DNA of 64,000 bases from Alexandriicola marinus (lineage in GTDB: Bacteria; Pseudomonadota; Alphaproteobacteria; Rhodobacterales; Rhodobacteraceae): the NCBI RefSeq assembly GCF_004000435.1, contig NZ_RBVZ01000001.1:124001-188000 (forward strand). The letters run 5' to 3'. The notes beneath the pieces were generated by a model. The model was given only the letters and a program-made list of their open reading frames with translations, searched no databases and was not told the DNA's origin. Below, one piece after another: positions 13,591 through 40,322 of the stretch (the first letter of the stretch is position 1; each line of letters begins with the position of its first letter). The translations under genes were made by a program, and so were the position numbers.

Positions 13591-14364
13591 ATGGCCGGCC
13601 ATTCCAAATGGGCAAACATTCAGCACCGCAAGGGCCGTCAGGACGCGGCCCGGTCAAAGCTGTTTTCCAAGCTCTCCAAGGAAATCACCGTCGCGGCGAA
13701 GATGGGCGACCCCGATCCCGAAAAGAACCCGCGCCTGCGGCTTGCGGTCAAGGAAGCCAAGTCGCAATCGGTGCCGAAGGACGTGATCGAGCGCGCGATC
13801 AAGAAAAGCGAAGGCGGCGATGCCGAAAGCTATGACGAGATCCGCTATGAAGGCTACGGCCCCGGCGGCGTGGCCATCATCGTCGAGGCGATGACGGACA
13901 ACCGCAACCGGACCGCCTCGACCGTGCGTTCCACCTTTTCGAAGAACGGCGGCAATCTGGGCGAGACCGGATCGGTTGGCTTTATGTTCGAACGCAAGGG
14001 CCAGATCGTCTTCGACTACGGCGTCGGCAGCCCCGATGACGTGATGATGGCCGCGATCGAGGCCGGTGCCGAGGACGTCGAAAGCGCCGAGGGCGATGGT
14101 GACGAGGATGAGGGCGGCCACTGGATCACCTGTGCCGATACCGACCTGTCGGAGGTGTCGACGGCGCTGGAACAGGCGCTGGGCGAAAGCCGCTCGACCA
14201 AACTGGTCTGGCAGGCGCAGACGACCTCGCCAGTCGATCTTGAGACGCTTCAGAAGGTGATGAAGCTGGTCGAAACCCTCGAGGATGACGACGACGTTCA
14301 AAGCGTCACGACGAATATGGACGCGCCCGACGAGGTGATGGAAGCCTACGCCGCAGCATCCTGA
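13591..14364 (+). CDS. yebC: YebC/PmpR-family protein (TACO1-like)
   Basis: The 257-residue protein opens with the invariant [18 protein letters not shown], continues with EYGPGG-like [17 protein letters not shown] and a central [18 protein letters not shown], all diagnostic. Family members bind DNA or the ribosome; some repress quorum-sensing genes, and recent work on YebC proteins links them to relief of ribosome stalling at proline stretches. GAGGTGG just upstream of ATG 13591 is a strong ribosome site. It stands alone with a candidate promoter upstream. Confidence 0.95.
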
Positions 14365-14430
14365 CGACAGGTTGGGGCCGGCGGGTCAGCCCTTCCTGAT
14401 CCCGGTGGCCCTCAAGGCGCGAGTTTCCTG

Positions 14431-16260
14431 ATGACGCATTATTTTGGCCGTGACCTGATTTCTGCCCTGCAGGCCGGGCATGGCTTTTGCGATCATTCGC
14501 AAGACGGCCGGGTTGGCGGTGTGGCCCATGAGGGCGGAGCCGTCGTGACAGGGGCCGGACAGGTCTGGGAACTGACGCTCCCCGCAAGCCGGGCCATTCG
14601 GTTCGTGGTGATCGAGAATGCGACACCCGTCGACAGACCCGATGCCCCGATCGAAGCGGATATCCGGGACCCCGACGGGAATTGGCTGCGGGTGCACGCG
14701 GGCCTCTGTTCCTTCGGGGATCAGGAGACCGGCCTGCCGCTTGTCATCGACCTTGGCCCCGGGCGCCGGTTTTCGGGTGTGCGGCTGACGGGCGATGCGG
14801 GGCTGCGGCTGGCCTCTGTCCGGCTGATCGGACCGGCGGCCCCGAATCCCGATTTCCGCTTTGTGGCGACCCGGCTGGATGGGCTGTGCCAAAGGCTGAC
14901 GACCCTGCTGAACGCCGTGATCCTCGCCGATCTGACGGGCCGGGATTTCGGGTTCATCTGGTATGCGGCCGATCTGCCCGAGGTTGACGGGCAGGCGAAT
15001 TCGGATCTGGGGCTGCTTTTCGAGCCGGACTTTGTTGAACGTCACCTCGTCGATCTGCACGCACTCCATCGCGGGATGCCGCATTACTACAACCGCCCCT
15101 ATAGCGAGGCGGAATTCGACTGGCTGATGAAGGAGGCCGAGGATCACGGCGTCTTCCAGGTCGACCGGCCCGGCAGGGTCGAGCAGATCTTTCCGCAATT
15201 CGCCGACCGGATCGACAGGTTCACCAATGCGCGCGCCTTCGACAGTCTGGGTTTTACAGCGACCGCCCGCGCCGCGATCGACGAGGCGCTAGGACACCCT
15301 CTGCCCGAGGGCGCGGTCGGTCTGCACCTGCGGGGTGGCGATATCGTGCACGGGACGCATTCGAACCACGGTGGCTATCTGCACAAGGCCGTTTCGATCT
15401 TCGAGGTCGAAGCACTTGCCGAACAGACGAAGACGGCCGGAACGCCGCTGGTCATCGTGGGCCAGGAGCACGATCTGATCGACCTGATGGTCGCGCGATA
15501 CGATCATGTGAGCGGGGTGCATCATCACACATCGACACGGGGCTTCGATCCGGTTCAGGGCGTGCTGTTCGATGCCATCATCCTGTCGCGCATGGCGCGC
15601 ATCTGGGCGCCGCTCAGTGCGGTGTCGCGCCTCTCGATGAAGCTGGGCGACGTGCCGCTGACGGATATGGGCAAGCTCTCCCTGCTGCCCGACCCGGGCC
15701 TCTTTCGGGACAAGCCCTTCGACGATACGGACTATAGCGGTATTTCGGCGAATTACCGGGCCTATTCGGCGATCAAGAGCGTCTGGATGCAGCCGGTCGA
15801 ACGCTGGGGGGCGGGCCATCTGGCGGCGTTGCAATATGCCAATCGCGTGCGGCCGGGTGTGCAGTTCATCCACCTGCTTCTCGGGGCGGTCCGGGCGCGG
15901 ATGGGCAGGTGGGATATCGCCGAAGACAGGATCCGCTCGACCCTGACGCTGCCACCGCCGTTCGAGGAGACGGATGTCACGACGAGCTATCTGCTGTCCA
16001 CCGATCCGCCCGCGCCCGAAGCGGTGATCGGCTGTTTCGCCGGGGCCGATCCGGTGGCGCATCCCCATGTGCATTTCCTGTTCCAGCTTTGCCGCGCCTT
16101 TCATCTGCGTGATCCGGAGGCACGCGCCCATGTGCGGCGGGTGATCGCTGGCGAGACAGCAATCCAACTGCGGCCCGAACTGATCGCCGATATCGAACAG
16201 CTCGTCTTCGGAAAGCGCAACCGCGACCTGCCGGGGGATCAGATCGCGTGGCTGCGCTAG
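14431..16260 (+). CDS. Putative fucosyltransferase-like protein with N-terminal beta-sandwich
   Basis: I do not recognise this 609-residue protein as a characterised enzyme. Residues about 45-135 look like a discoidin-type beta-sandwich (WELTLPASRAIRFVVIEN). At 150-178 the string GLCQRLTTLLNAVILADL resembles the N-terminal loop of NodZ/GT11/GT23-like fucosyltransferases, and GLHLRGGDIVHG at 297-308 resembles their nucleotide-sugar motif (H-x-R-x-GD). Residues 440-609 appear helical. No signal peptide is visible, so it is probably cytoplasmic and acts on a surface glycan or protein. The next gene starts 5 bp after its stop. Confidence 0.5.
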   Translation: MTHYFGRDLISALQAGHGFCDHSQDGRVGGVAHEGGAVVTGAGQVWELTLPASRAIRFVVIENATPVDRPDAPIEADIRDPDGNWLRVHAGLCSFGDQETGLPLVIDLGPGRRFSGVRLTGDAGLRLASVRLIGPAAPNPDFRFVATRLDGLCQRLTTLLNAVILADLTGRDFGFIWYAADLPEVDGQANSDLGLLFEPDFVERHLVDLHALHRGMPHYYNRPYSEAEFDWLMKEAEDHGVFQVDRPGRVEQIFPQFADRIDRFTNARAFDSLGFTATARAAIDEALGHPLPEGAVGLHLRGGDIVHGTHSNHGGYLHKAVSIFEVEALAEQTKTAGTPLVIVGQEHDLIDLMVARYDHVSGVHHHTSTRGFDPVQGVLFDAIILSRMARIWAPLSAVSRLSMKLGDVPLTDMGKLSLLPDPGLFRDKPFDDTDYSGISANYRAYSAIKSVWMQPVERWGAGHLAALQYANRVRPGVQFIHLLLGAVRARMGRWDIAEDRIRSTLTLPPPFEETDVTTSYLLSTDPPAPEAVIGCFAGADPVAHPHVHFLFQLCRAFHLRDPEARAHVRRVIAGETAIQLRPELIADIEQLVFGKRNRDLPGDQIAWLR

Positions 16261-16264
16261 GCTG

Positions 16265-16867
16265 ATGGTGGCCTTTCTCACCGGTTTTTCGCTGGGATTG
16301 TCGCTGATCCTCGCGATCGGGGCGCAGAACGCTTTTGTCCTGCGGCAGGGATTGCGGCGGCTGCATGTCCTGCCGGTCGTTCTGACCTGCGCGATCTCGG
16401 ACGCGGTCCTGATCGTGGTGGGCGTGTCGGGTTTCGGCGCCCTGTCGCAGGCCGCGCCATGGATCGTGGACGCTCTGCGCTGGATGGGAGCCGCGTTCCT
16501 CGTGGTCTATGGCGCGATGGCATTCCGGGCGGCATGGCTGGGGACGGGCGCGATGAAGGCAGAAGGGCGCATCGAGGGCAGCGCCGCGGCGGCGGTGGCG
16601 ACCTGCCTTGCGCTGACATGGCTCAACCCGCATGTATATCTCGATACCGTGGTTCTGATCGGTTCGGTCGCAGCGGGGCAGGAGGGCGCGCGTGCGGCCT
16701 TTGGCGCGGGGGCCGTTGCGGCATCGTTCACGTTCTTTTTCTCGCTGGGCTATGGCGCACGGCTTCTGGCGCCGGTCTTTGCCCGGCCCGCCGCGTGGCG
16801 TGTTCTGGATATCGGGATCGGTTGCATCATGTGGGCCATCGCTTTGGGGCTGATAATCAAGGGATAA
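16265..16867 (+). CDS. LysE/ArgO-family amino acid exporter
   Basis: A 200-residue membrane protein with six predicted helices. The N-terminus FSLGLSLILAIGAQNAFVLR and the downstream CAISDAVLIVVGVSGFG are the hallmarks of LysE/ArgO, which export basic amino acids such as lysine or arginine. LTWLNPHVYLDTVVLIGSVA also matches the family. The start at 16265 is 5 bp after the previous stop, suggesting co-transcription with the 609-residue gene. Confidence 0.88.
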   Translation: MVAFLTGFSLGLSLILAIGAQNAFVLRQGLRRLHVLPVVLTCAISDAVLIVVGVSGFGALSQAAPWIVDALRWMGAAFLVVYGAMAFRAAWLGTGAMKAEGRIEGSAAAAVATCLALTWLNPHVYLDTVVLIGSVAAGQEGARAAFGAGAVAASFTFFFSLGYGARLLAPVFARPAAWRVLDIGIGCIMWAIALGLIIKG

Positions 16868-37931: not shown

Positions 37932-38546
37932 ATGATGGAAATCGACCATATCGCAATCGTCTGTGCCGATCTGGACCTCGGATGCCAGAACGTCGAGGAG
38001 CGGATCGGCCTGCCATTGCGGCCCGGCGGCCGCCATGCGCGCTATGCCACGCACAACAGGCTTTTGGGTCTGGGCCCCGACATCTATCTCGAGGTGATCG
38101 CGCCCGACCCGTCGGTGCCTGCTCCGTCCCATCCGCGCTGGTTTGCGCTGGATCATGCGCTCGAAGTTCCGCGCGTGGGCAACTGGCTGGTTCGCGTGCC
38201 CGATCTAGGGGCCGCGCTGGCCGGGGCACCCGAGGGCGCGGGCCGGCCCGTGGCCCTGGCGCGCGATGACCTGAGTTGGGAGATCGCGGTGCCGGACGAC
38301 GGATCGCTGCCGATGGAAGGCGGCTGGCCCACCATGCTGCAATGGCATGGCGGCCTGCACCCCGCCCGGCGGCTGCCCGATGACGGGGTTCGTCTGACGA
38401 CGATCGAGGTCCGGCACCCCCGGGCCGACTGGCTTGCCCGGACACTCTTGCCGGGCCTGACGGGCCCCGAAGTCCGCTTCATCCCCGCGCCTGCGGCGGC
38501 GCTGTCGGTTGAGCTGTCCACGCCGGGCGGGGTTGTGTGGCTTTGA
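37932..38546 (+). CDS. VOC-family glyoxalase-like protein
   Basis: A 204-residue protein of the Glyoxalase_3-like VOC fold, beginning MEIDHIAIVCADLDLG and continuing with GPDIYLEVIAPDPSVPAP and HPRWFALDHALE. VOC proteins are metal-dependent lyases, dioxygenases or resistance proteins; the reaction here is unknown. Two consecutive ATGs (37932, 37935) are both possible starts. It lies right after the broken MAPEG gene. Confidence 0.8.
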   Translation: MMEIDHIAIVCADLDLGCQNVEERIGLPLRPGGRHARYATHNRLLGLGPDIYLEVIAPDPSVPAPSHPRWFALDHALEVPRVGNWLVRVPDLGAALAGAPEGAGRPVALARDDLSWEIAVPDDGSLPMEGGWPTMLQWHGGLHPARRLPDDGVRLTTIEVRHPRADWLARTLLPGLTGPEVRFIPAPAAALSVELSTPGGVVWL

Positions 38547-38615
38547 GACGGTTGGTGTGTGCCGCGCTGCCGCATTTCGACTGACACCACCGGCCCGAAC
38601 GATTAGGGTGATCCC

Positions 38616-39302
38616 ATGTCGATCTGGAGCAGGATAGGAGAGGCCCTTTCGGCCCTGACCGCGGGCGAAAGCCTGACGGTCGTCTTTGACAAGTTGCGCA
38701 GCAATCCGGAACGCTCCGTCGCCTTTACCATTGCCGTGATCGCGCTGGGGGCCAAGATGGCCAAGGCCGACGGGCTTGTCACGCGTGACGAGGTCGCGGC
38801 CTTTCGCGAGGTGTTCCATATCTCGGGCGAGGACGAGGGGCAGGCGGCCCGGGTGTTCAACCTCGCGCGCCAGGACATTGCCGGATTCGAGGAATATGCT
38901 AGGCGGATCGGTGCGATGTTCCGGTCCGCCGAGGGCGAGACGCCGCTGTGCGATCTGCTGGAGGGGCTGTTTCACATCGCGGTGGCCGATGGCAAATATC
39001 ATCCCGCCGAGGATGCCTTTCTGGCCCGGGTGGCCGAGTTGTTCGGTTTCGGCGAAAGGGAATTCGCGCGCGTCCGGTCGCAATTCGTGCCCGAGGCCGA
39101 GGCCGACCCCTACGACGTTCTGGGCGTCTCTCCTGACATGGAGACGGCCGAGATCCGCTCCGCCTGGCGGCAGTTGGTCCGCGAGACCCATCCCGACCGG
39201 ATGATCGCCCGCGGCGTGCCCGAAGAGGCGATCAAACTTGCCGAAAAGCGGCTGATCGCGGTGAACCGGGCCTGGGAACGGATCGCCGAAAGCAGGGTCT
39301 GA
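38616..39302 (+). CDS. djlA: TerB- and J-domain co-chaperone (DjlA-like)
   Basis: A 228-residue soluble protein. Residues about 30-145 form a TerB/tellurite-resistance-type helical domain (IALGAKMAKADGLVTRDEV), and the C-terminus is a J domain (PYDVLGVSPDMETAEIRSAW, then ETHPDRM with the catalytic HPD). The J domain should stimulate DnaK ATPase. It lacks the membrane anchor of E. coli DjlA, as in other alphaproteobacteria. It is 3 bp from the next gene, so the two are likely cotranscribed. Confidence 0.87.
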   Translation: MSIWSRIGEALSALTAGESLTVVFDKLRSNPERSVAFTIAVIALGAKMAKADGLVTRDEVAAFREVFHISGEDEGQAARVFNLARQDIAGFEEYARRIGAMFRSAEGETPLCDLLEGLFHIAVADGKYHPAEDAFLARVAELFGFGEREFARVRSQFVPEAEADPYDVLGVSPDMETAEIRSAWRQLVRETHPDRMIARGVPEEAIKLAEKRLIAVNRAWERIAESRV

Positions 39303-39305
39303 GCC

Positions 39306-40322
39306 GTGCGGATCGCGACGTACAATGTCGAATGGTTCGATCACTTGTTCGACGAGCATGGCCATCTTCGGGCGGATGATGGCTGGTCCGGCCGCTATGA
39401 CGTGACACGCATTCAGCAGATCGAAGCGCTGATCCGTGTCTTTTCCGCGCTTGATGCCGATGCGGTCATGGTGATCGAAGCCCCCGACACCCATCGCGAC
39501 CGTGATGGCGTTGCCGCACTCGAGACATTCGCCGAGGCGGCGGGCCTGCGGGCCCGCAAGGCCCTGATCGGATTTGCCAACCAGACCCAACAGGAGATTT
39601 CGCTGCTCTACGATCCAGATGTAGGCTTGGCCCGGCATGACCCCAAGGGCGGAACAGCGGGAGAGCCCGGCATTCCGAAATTCGACGAGGAATACCGGAT
39701 CGATCTGGATATCGACGCCTCGCCCGATCCGGTGCGCTGGTCGAAACCCCCGTTGGAAGTGGAATTCGTGCCGCAGGGAAAGAATCCGATCCGGCTGATC
39801 GGGGTGCACGCGAAATCCAAGGCGCCTCATGGCGCCCGGTCCGAGGCCGAGGTGATGCGCATCTCGATCGACAACCGGCGCAAGCAACTTGCCCAGTGCA
39901 TCTGGCTGCGCGCCCGGGTGGCCGAGCATCTTGATGCCGGCGATCCGCTGATCGTCATGGGCGATTTCAACGATGGTCCGGGCCTCGATGAATACGAAAA
40001 GCTCTTTGGCCGGTCCGGCGTCGAGATCGTGATGGGCGAGGGTAACGGCCCGCGCCTGTTCGACCCGCATGCCCGGCAGGCCCTGTCGCGCCGGATCGTT
40101 GCCGCGCCTTCGACCGCGCGGTTTCGCATACATCCCGAGGGACGCTATCTTTCGGCGCTTCTGGATTACATCATGATCTCACCCGACCTGATGGCGCTTC
40201 GGCCCGCCTGGCGGATCTGGCACCCGTTCGATGATCCCGAATGTTTCAGCGACGCGGAGCTGTGCCGCGCGCTTCAGACCGCCTCGGATCATTTCCCGGT
40301 CACACTCGATATCGAGCTGTGA
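39306..40322 (+). CDS. Endonuclease/exonuclease/phosphatase-family protein
   Basis: A 338-residue protein of the EEP fold. It begins MRIATYNVEWFDHLF, with the metal-binding Asn-Val-Glu, and ends with a conserved catalytic DH-like TASDHFPVTLDIEL. VMGDFNDGPG supplies the central Asp-Asn pair. The family includes DNA repair nucleases and lipid phosphatases; the target is not evident. The start is GTG 39306. No signal peptide. Confidence 0.83.
   Translation: MRIATYNVEWFDHLFDEHGHLRADDGWSGRYDVTRIQQIEALIRVFSALDADAVMVIEAPDTHRDRDGVAALETFAEAAGLRARKALIGFANQTQQEISLLYDPDVGLARHDPKGGTAGEPGIPKFDEEYRIDLDIDASPDPVRWSKPPLEVEFVPQGKNPIRLIGVHAKSKAPHGARSEAEVMRISIDNRRKQLAQCIWLRARVAEHLDAGDPLIVMGDFNDGPGLDEYEKLFGRSGVEIVMGEGNGPRLFDPHARQALSRRIVAAPSTARFRIHPEGRYLSALLDYIMISPDLMALRPAWRIWHPFDDPECFSDAELCRALQTASDHFPVTLDIEL

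Follow-up and report, generated by a model that had tools for sequence, protein, structure and literature searches.

The gene at 14431-16260 of the window (the whole 64,000-nucleotide stretch of Alexandriicola marinus DNA that was analysed) encodes a protein, P0001, that by predicted fold and profile homology is a member of the alpha-1,2/alpha-1,6/O-fucosyltransferase superfamily. The reading that fits the evidence best, at a probability of about 70%, is that P0001 is an inverting GT-B enzyme that transfers fucose from GDP-fucose to a glycan, and that it represents an undescribed family related to NodZ and FUT8 (GT23) and to GT11. The analysis shows the reading frame, the homology, the conserved residues, the lost lectin triad and the gene neighbourhoods directly, and the fold is predicted; donor, acceptor, inversion, metal-independence, cell compartment and the role of the tail are what we infer for it. 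New bacterial fucosyltransferases are practically useful for producing fucosylated glycans.

The gene and its relatives

The open reading frame runs from ATG to stop without interruption over 609 codons, starting 66 bases past a YebC-type gene, and a LysE-type exporter gene begins 4 bases beyond its stop codon. Its GC content by codon position (0.714/0.452/0.775) is close to the values of four neighbouring genes. A search for promoter-like sites gave none, with 0.7 expected, and there are six terminator-like sites, part of them within genes. Queried alone, the protein had no match in Pfam, NCBIfam, PHROGs or the PDB sequences, bearing out its description as uncharacterised in an earlier note on this DNA. 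The features discussed below are as follows.

13591-14364, + strand: YebC-type gene, upstream neighbour (name read from the sequence without a family scan)
14431-16260, + strand: complete gene for the transferase-like protein P0001, 609 residues (open reading frame, relatives, predicted structure)
14536-14838, + strand: degenerate F-type-lectin-like beta-sandwich, residues ~36-136 (fold match, HMM score, lost residues)
14845-15684, + strand: predicted GT-B fucosyltransferase-type catalytic domain, residues ~139-418 (VIA match to NodZ, core profile, hhalign)
14881-14916, + strand: N-terminal motif GLCQRLTTLLNA, residues 151-162 (26-row alignment)
15325-15342, + strand: motif I, HLRGGD, residues 299-304, counterpart of HxRRxD (26-row alignment)
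15616-15618, + strand: invariant Ser396 of the C-terminal motif, opposite a Ser in NodZ and GT11 (alignment)
15748-16227, + strand: TPR-like helical region, residues ~440-599 (model helices; TPR matches in relatives)
16265-16867, + strand: LysE-type exporter gene, downstream neighbour (name read from the sequence without a family scan)

The first relatives came from tblastn and whole-genome searches, and the deeper kinship became visible from family alignments only. Two relatives, both on Roseobacteraceae plasmids, were found by tblastn among 72,556 records. Of 394 genomes of the same family, 12, counting the source genome, matched at an E of 0.01 or lower; the weakest matches, in G313 and G102, leave the catalytic core uncovered. 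A six-row profile matched 3 of 385 class-level genomes, again counting the source genome, one of them in the C-terminal part only, and a search of the genome collection with the six-row alignment gave 31 loci: 16 from Mesorhizobium, three from Helicobacter, two from Brevundimonas, two from Campylobacteraceae MAGs and one each from Flavimaricola, Harenicola, Neomegalonema, Palleronia, Kushneria, Luteimonas, Campylobacter and a Trueperaceae MAG. In a search of 61 genomes the source genome itself was the one match and the 60 nearest relatives gave none, and the viral contig collection held no confirmed relatives. P0001 and 25 relatives, drawn from 40 open reading frames, make up the 26-row alignment used below; 12 Mesorhizobium frames, the minus-strand frame of locus L049 and L041:3466-5040, which has the N-terminal domain only, were omitted.

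Two side observations concern copy number. The source genome carries a second, distant family member of about 706 residues on contig C57 (match at 38535-39365, - strand; L019 / L060:7267-9384), with a borderline TPR_9 match close to its C-terminus. Tandem pairs of family genes lie right after gmd-fcl in six Mesorhizobium loci (L024, L027, L031, L032, L033 and L040).

The catalytic domain is predicted to be related to NodZ and GT11

The AlphaFold2 model of P0001 (mean pLDDT 79.1, pTM 0.73, with residues 1-36 below pLDDT 50) has a GT-B-like domain between a beta-sandwich and a helical tail. In a Foldseek search of the PDB the top match was NodZ at E 5.6e-7, and the first 48 of the best 50 matches listed were fucosyltransferases (NodZ, POFUT1, FUT8, AtFUT1 and POFUT2). 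With VIA, residues 139-418 of the model aligned to NodZ (3siw) with a Z of 11.9 (230 residues, rmsd 4.8), and FUT8 was level with it at a Z of 11.6. The GT-B fold proposed in the earlier note is thus also what structure prediction and fold comparison give, of the fucosyltransferase type and closest to NodZ. FUT8, AtFUT1, POFUT1 and POFUT2 (GT23, GT37, GT65 and GT68) share the predicted catalytic fold, with Z values of 9.5-11.6 among the matches listed, but are eukaryotic, have other accessory regions and show 8-15% aligned identity in those matches. A fold search of viral proteins returned giant-virus and phage proteins, several of them named fucosyltransferases, and nothing specific.

Profile comparisons point the same way. 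A core profile of the 26 members, run against the PDB, found NodZ as the sole sequence below E 0.1 (E 1.7e-4 over nearly the whole NodZ length; the next of the eight listed was at 0.11). By hhalign the family core matched NodZ at 95.9% over 248 columns and GT11 at 96.3% over 263 columns, against 12.7% for GT9, 0.1% for GMD and 0.4% for GDP-fucose synthase as controls, the sets holding 5 NodZ, 9 GT11, just 2 GT9, 25 GMD and 25 GDP-fucose synthase sequences. Compared directly, GT11 and NodZ reached 72.1%; the family thus stands between GT11 and GT23, at ~96% to each against 72% for the two mutually. It is nevertheless distinct from both. A tree of 50 rows, 28 of them near and 8 distant members of the family, placed the family in a clade of its own, apart from both the five NodZ rows and the nine GT11 rows, with support of 98/92 for the separation and a warning from the tool of long branches; the joining of NodZ to GT11 in this tree is not trustworthy because their long branches meet. 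The Pfam NodZ model (PF05830) matched neither P0001 nor any of the 26 members at E 0.5. The GT11 model (PF01531) likewise matched none of these, and one of six members gave a weak match (0.063). The closest homologues found carry no Pfam or NCBIfam family across the catalytic core, so that neither of the outcomes named in the earlier note as refuting its reading, a fold other than GT-B or closest kinship to a different characterised family, emerged.

The presence of POFUT1 and POFUT2 among the structural matches raises the alternative that P0001 is a protein O-fucosyltransferase, with the TPR-like tail picking out a protein acceptor. The TPR-like character of that tail in relatives and the position of the gene outside any polysaccharide cluster would suit such a role, which is nonetheless judged distinctly unlikely, given that NodZ (11.9) and FUT8 (11.6) exceed POFUT (10.4) in VIA Z and that several relatives lie amid glycan genes.

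Conserved residues of the predicted donor site

Nine residues are invariant in all 26 rows and present in P0001: Gly151, Arg155, Trp177, Phe197, His299, Arg301, Asp304, Lys319 and Ser396. The two motifs of NodZ/GT11/GT23 type that had been noticed from the sequence, GLCQRLTTLLNA and HLRGGD, are therefore real, in that residues of both are invariant and the core profile finds NodZ. The N-terminal glycine motif and the H-x-R are common to the family and NodZ, and HLRGGD aligned both with the H-x-R of NodZ and with motif I of GT11 (H-x-R-x-G-D). The first Arg of HxRRxD corresponds by alignment to Arg301. This residue is reported to be critical in WbsJ (PMC4202792), and in POFUT1 its equivalent, Arg240, is reported to be required for GDP binding and activity (PMC3180450). 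At the position of the second Arg P0001 has Gly302, which counts against the preferred reading; this Arg is however not universal, since NodZ as aligned also lacks it. Cys153, within the N-terminal motif, is found in P0001 and its Flavimaricola relative in place of the Gly of the other 24 rows.

In the proposed mechanism GDP-L-fucose would bind in the cleft, held chiefly by the second Rossmann half. Arg301, as the first Arg of motif I, would contact the donor phosphates, and the motif at 151-162 and Ser396 may help to build the donor site. The acceptor of the fucose would then be a surface glycan, or a precursor of one.

Neighbouring genes and the identity of the donor

The genes gmd and fcl make GDP-fucose. 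One or both are present in 19 of the 31 loci, with a nearest gap to the transferase frame of at most 712 bases, and gmd and/or fcl also adjoin homologues in G272, G317 and G144, as judged by coordinates (G255 is the Harenicola locus again and adds no further case). On a Sulfitobacter plasmid gmd and fcl lie about 6-7 kb from the family gene. On a Mesorhizobium plasmid, gmd and fcl likewise neighbour a NodZ gene, so that this setting is a further likeness between NodZ and many members of the family. Glycan-synthesis genes were seen among the Pfam-scanned neighbours of five loci (L023, L041, L044, L049 and L050), and none among those of L021, L028, L045 and L048, the last three being a point against the preferred reading.

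The distribution is uneven, and this weighs against the preferred reading: all 16 Mesorhizobium loci have gmd or fcl, compared with just 3 of the other 15 (Kushneria, Harenicola and Luteimonas), and near the P0001 gene, as near that of its Flavimaricola relative, there is no gmd, fcl or recognised glycan gene. The source genome does encode gmd (C101:50323-51375) and fcl (C101:52698-53639), on a contig other than that of P0001. The fcl frame is intact, a reported stop sitting ahead of its Met. On the donor evidence taken together GDP-fucose is plausible for P0001, although its own gene is unlinked to gmd and fcl. In both the source genome (L059:1247-8436) and the Sulfitobacter plasmid cluster (L002:3898-8411), gmd is accompanied by a DUF2793 protein at a distance of up to about 5 kb.

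Elsewhere in the family the donor may in places be something other than GDP-fucose: of 20 distinct genomes that carry family members, 5 gave no gmd match at E 1e-50. This figure combines 1 of 10 (G222) with 4 of 11 (G946, G947, G952 and G954), one organism being in both sets and locus L036 lying outside the search. The latter four are two Helicobacter genomes and two MAGs (G952 and G954), and one gmd-less MAG is the source of the relative with a complete lectin motif described below. These genomes favour the view that the same fold serves another donor, such as a rhamnosyl donor or a different GDP-6-deoxyhexose, as do the dTDP-rhamnose genes that the Sulfitobacter cluster also holds. In plants, the GT106 branch of this fold uses UDP-rhamnose. 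Set against this, gmd and/or fcl recur directly adjacent to the transferase in unrelated lineages, and in none of the 31 loci was an rfbA-D query the best match of any frame at E 1e-20. It would seem unlikely, on balance, that P0001 uses such a donor, and GDP-fucose is preferred.

The N-terminal domain resembles F-type lectins

The N-terminal region had been described as discoidin-like. The beta-sandwich is indeed present in the AlphaFold2 model, its strands lying within residues 38-133, and profile evidence refines the assignment by placing the domain with the F-type fucose lectins. With VIA, residues 35-136 matched the fucose-binding module 2j22 with a Z of 9.8 and an rmsd of 2.4 over 92 residues. 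Foldseek with an N-terminal domain alone ranked an APC10 chain first. The corresponding domain of the relative in locus L021 (model pLDDT 82.6) gave F-type lectins first in VIA at Z 14.8, tied with other discoidin folds, CBM32 being at 14.4. As these values are tied, the fold cannot decide between an F-type lectin and a CBM32 or discoidin domain, and the claim of F-type kinship is made on the sequence profile. This five-row profile, built from four transferases including P0001 and one protein adjoining a transferase, had F-type lectins (MsaFBP32, eel agglutinin and SpX-3 among the proteins compared) as its first six PDB matches, at E 1.4e-13 to 1.2e-5, followed by neuropilin at 0.077. The P0001 domain as a lone query found nothing, and scored 24.1 bits against an HMM built from five other domains; of 500 shuffled sequences 204 scored at all, the best at 0.0 bits.

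The lectin motif is given as HX24RXDX4(R or K), although in the eel lectin His52 and Arg79 have 26 residues between them (PMC5712786). The relatives of P0001 also have 26 residues between the motif His and Arg. By alignment the binding His and, 26 residues on, the Arg are kept in all five relatives examined, and the full motif H-x26-R-x-D-x4-K in two, each encoded by a Campylobacteraceae MAG: the L021 transferase and L041:3466-5040, which is not a transferase. The latter is an otherwise unidentified protein carrying the F-type domain, and adjoins a family transferase that lacks one. In P0001, unlike the known F-type lectins, the three basic fucose-contacting positions are lost, the His being aligned with Val, the Arg with Ala and the third position not being basic, and the domain is fused to a transferase. 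The P0001 domain thus appears, from the alignment, to have lost its sugar-binding residues, and its role is probably structural because they are gone. Looser matches to the lectin motif in L002, L043 and L023 were rejected as spurious, as they run into the catalytic motif.

Four of the 26 alignment rows carry the domain, as judged by eye, and the Flavimaricola relative lacks it. The domain would descend from an F-type lectin and, in relatives, could recognise fucose already present on the acceptor. Some members may therefore combine a transferase and a fucose-recognising lectin on one chain, a writer fused to its own reader, an idea that is put forward tentatively and at somewhat less than even odds. 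If true, such a fusion could render glycan fucosylation self-reinforcing or processive. It is a testable idea on how bacteria might control fucosylation, with relatives that keep, lose or lack the lectin sites; in the lineage of P0001 the reader has decayed in one genus and is absent in the next. In the open-licence literature searched, by titles and the starts of abstracts, no description of a fucosyltransferase fused to an F-type lectin was found.

The C-terminal tail

The model has helices at 440-599, in agreement with the helical C-terminal third read from the sequence, and the region is TPR-like in relatives: the Pfam family TPR_19 was matched in 13 of the 26 members with E values no higher than 0.5 and as low as 7.8e-7, P0001 not being among them, and the family profile matches TPR proteins in the PDB. 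The tail probably holds the acceptor or a partner protein. Together with the lectin-like region it sets the family apart from NodZ, which has neither, and GT11 likewise has another domain architecture.

A further label comes from NCBIfam NF058596, matched by 2 of the 26 members, according to which these proteins would be phosphoramidate (MeOPN) transferases of the Campylobacter CJJ1420 kind. The matches cover only positions 5-101 of the 596 in the profile and score 76.3 and 88 bits, where the cut-off is 600; this reading has next to no chance of being correct. The label was rejected: in the two proteins concerned, both from Helicobacter, it is the C-terminal tail that matches and not the catalytic core, and nothing comparable is present in P0001. 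The matching segment is about 95 residues long and C-terminal in both (L045:9662-11758 and L050:2505-4508).

Evolution of the yebC-lysE locus

The closest relative found is that of Flavimaricola marinus, with 35% identity and in the same yebC-lysE interval. P0001 and this protein have in common the substitutions G153C, R311S and D346E. They share a long stem in the tree (1.46), and the end branch of P0001 is itself long (1.26). There are 56 positions at which 18 or more of the other 24 rows are conserved; P0001 deviates at 19 of these, including at Gly153 and Asn477, which are identical in all 24. The long stem and the altered positions speak against the preferred reading, and it could be that the yebC-lysE lineage is a drifting or non-catalytic descendant that lost its lectin function and is now losing the enzyme; the lengths of both branches, the lost lectin triad, the 19 changes and the absence of the N-terminal domain from the Flavimaricola relative would all be consistent with this. 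Against it, the reading frame is intact, its codon composition is near that of its neighbours, all nine invariant core residues are present and a relative has been retained at the same place in another genus, so that drift is considered improbable and an active fucosyltransferase is preferred.

Around lysE in 23 other loci, yebC and lysE lie close together with no room for a gene in four (L082, L086, L098 and L100), are separated by a gap of about 1.05-1.4 kb in five, and in 14 yebC is not inside the short stretch covered. When the family profiles were compared with the frames in these five gaps and in two of the short intervals, none matched. The P0001 gene thus appears to be a lineage-specific occupant of the interval, the sampled yebC-lysE gaps having no family match. 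Four of the five gaps hold an opposite-strand frame that by eye resembles a LysR-type regulator, where the interval at 14365-16264 of the window and that of Flavimaricola have the transferase gene instead.
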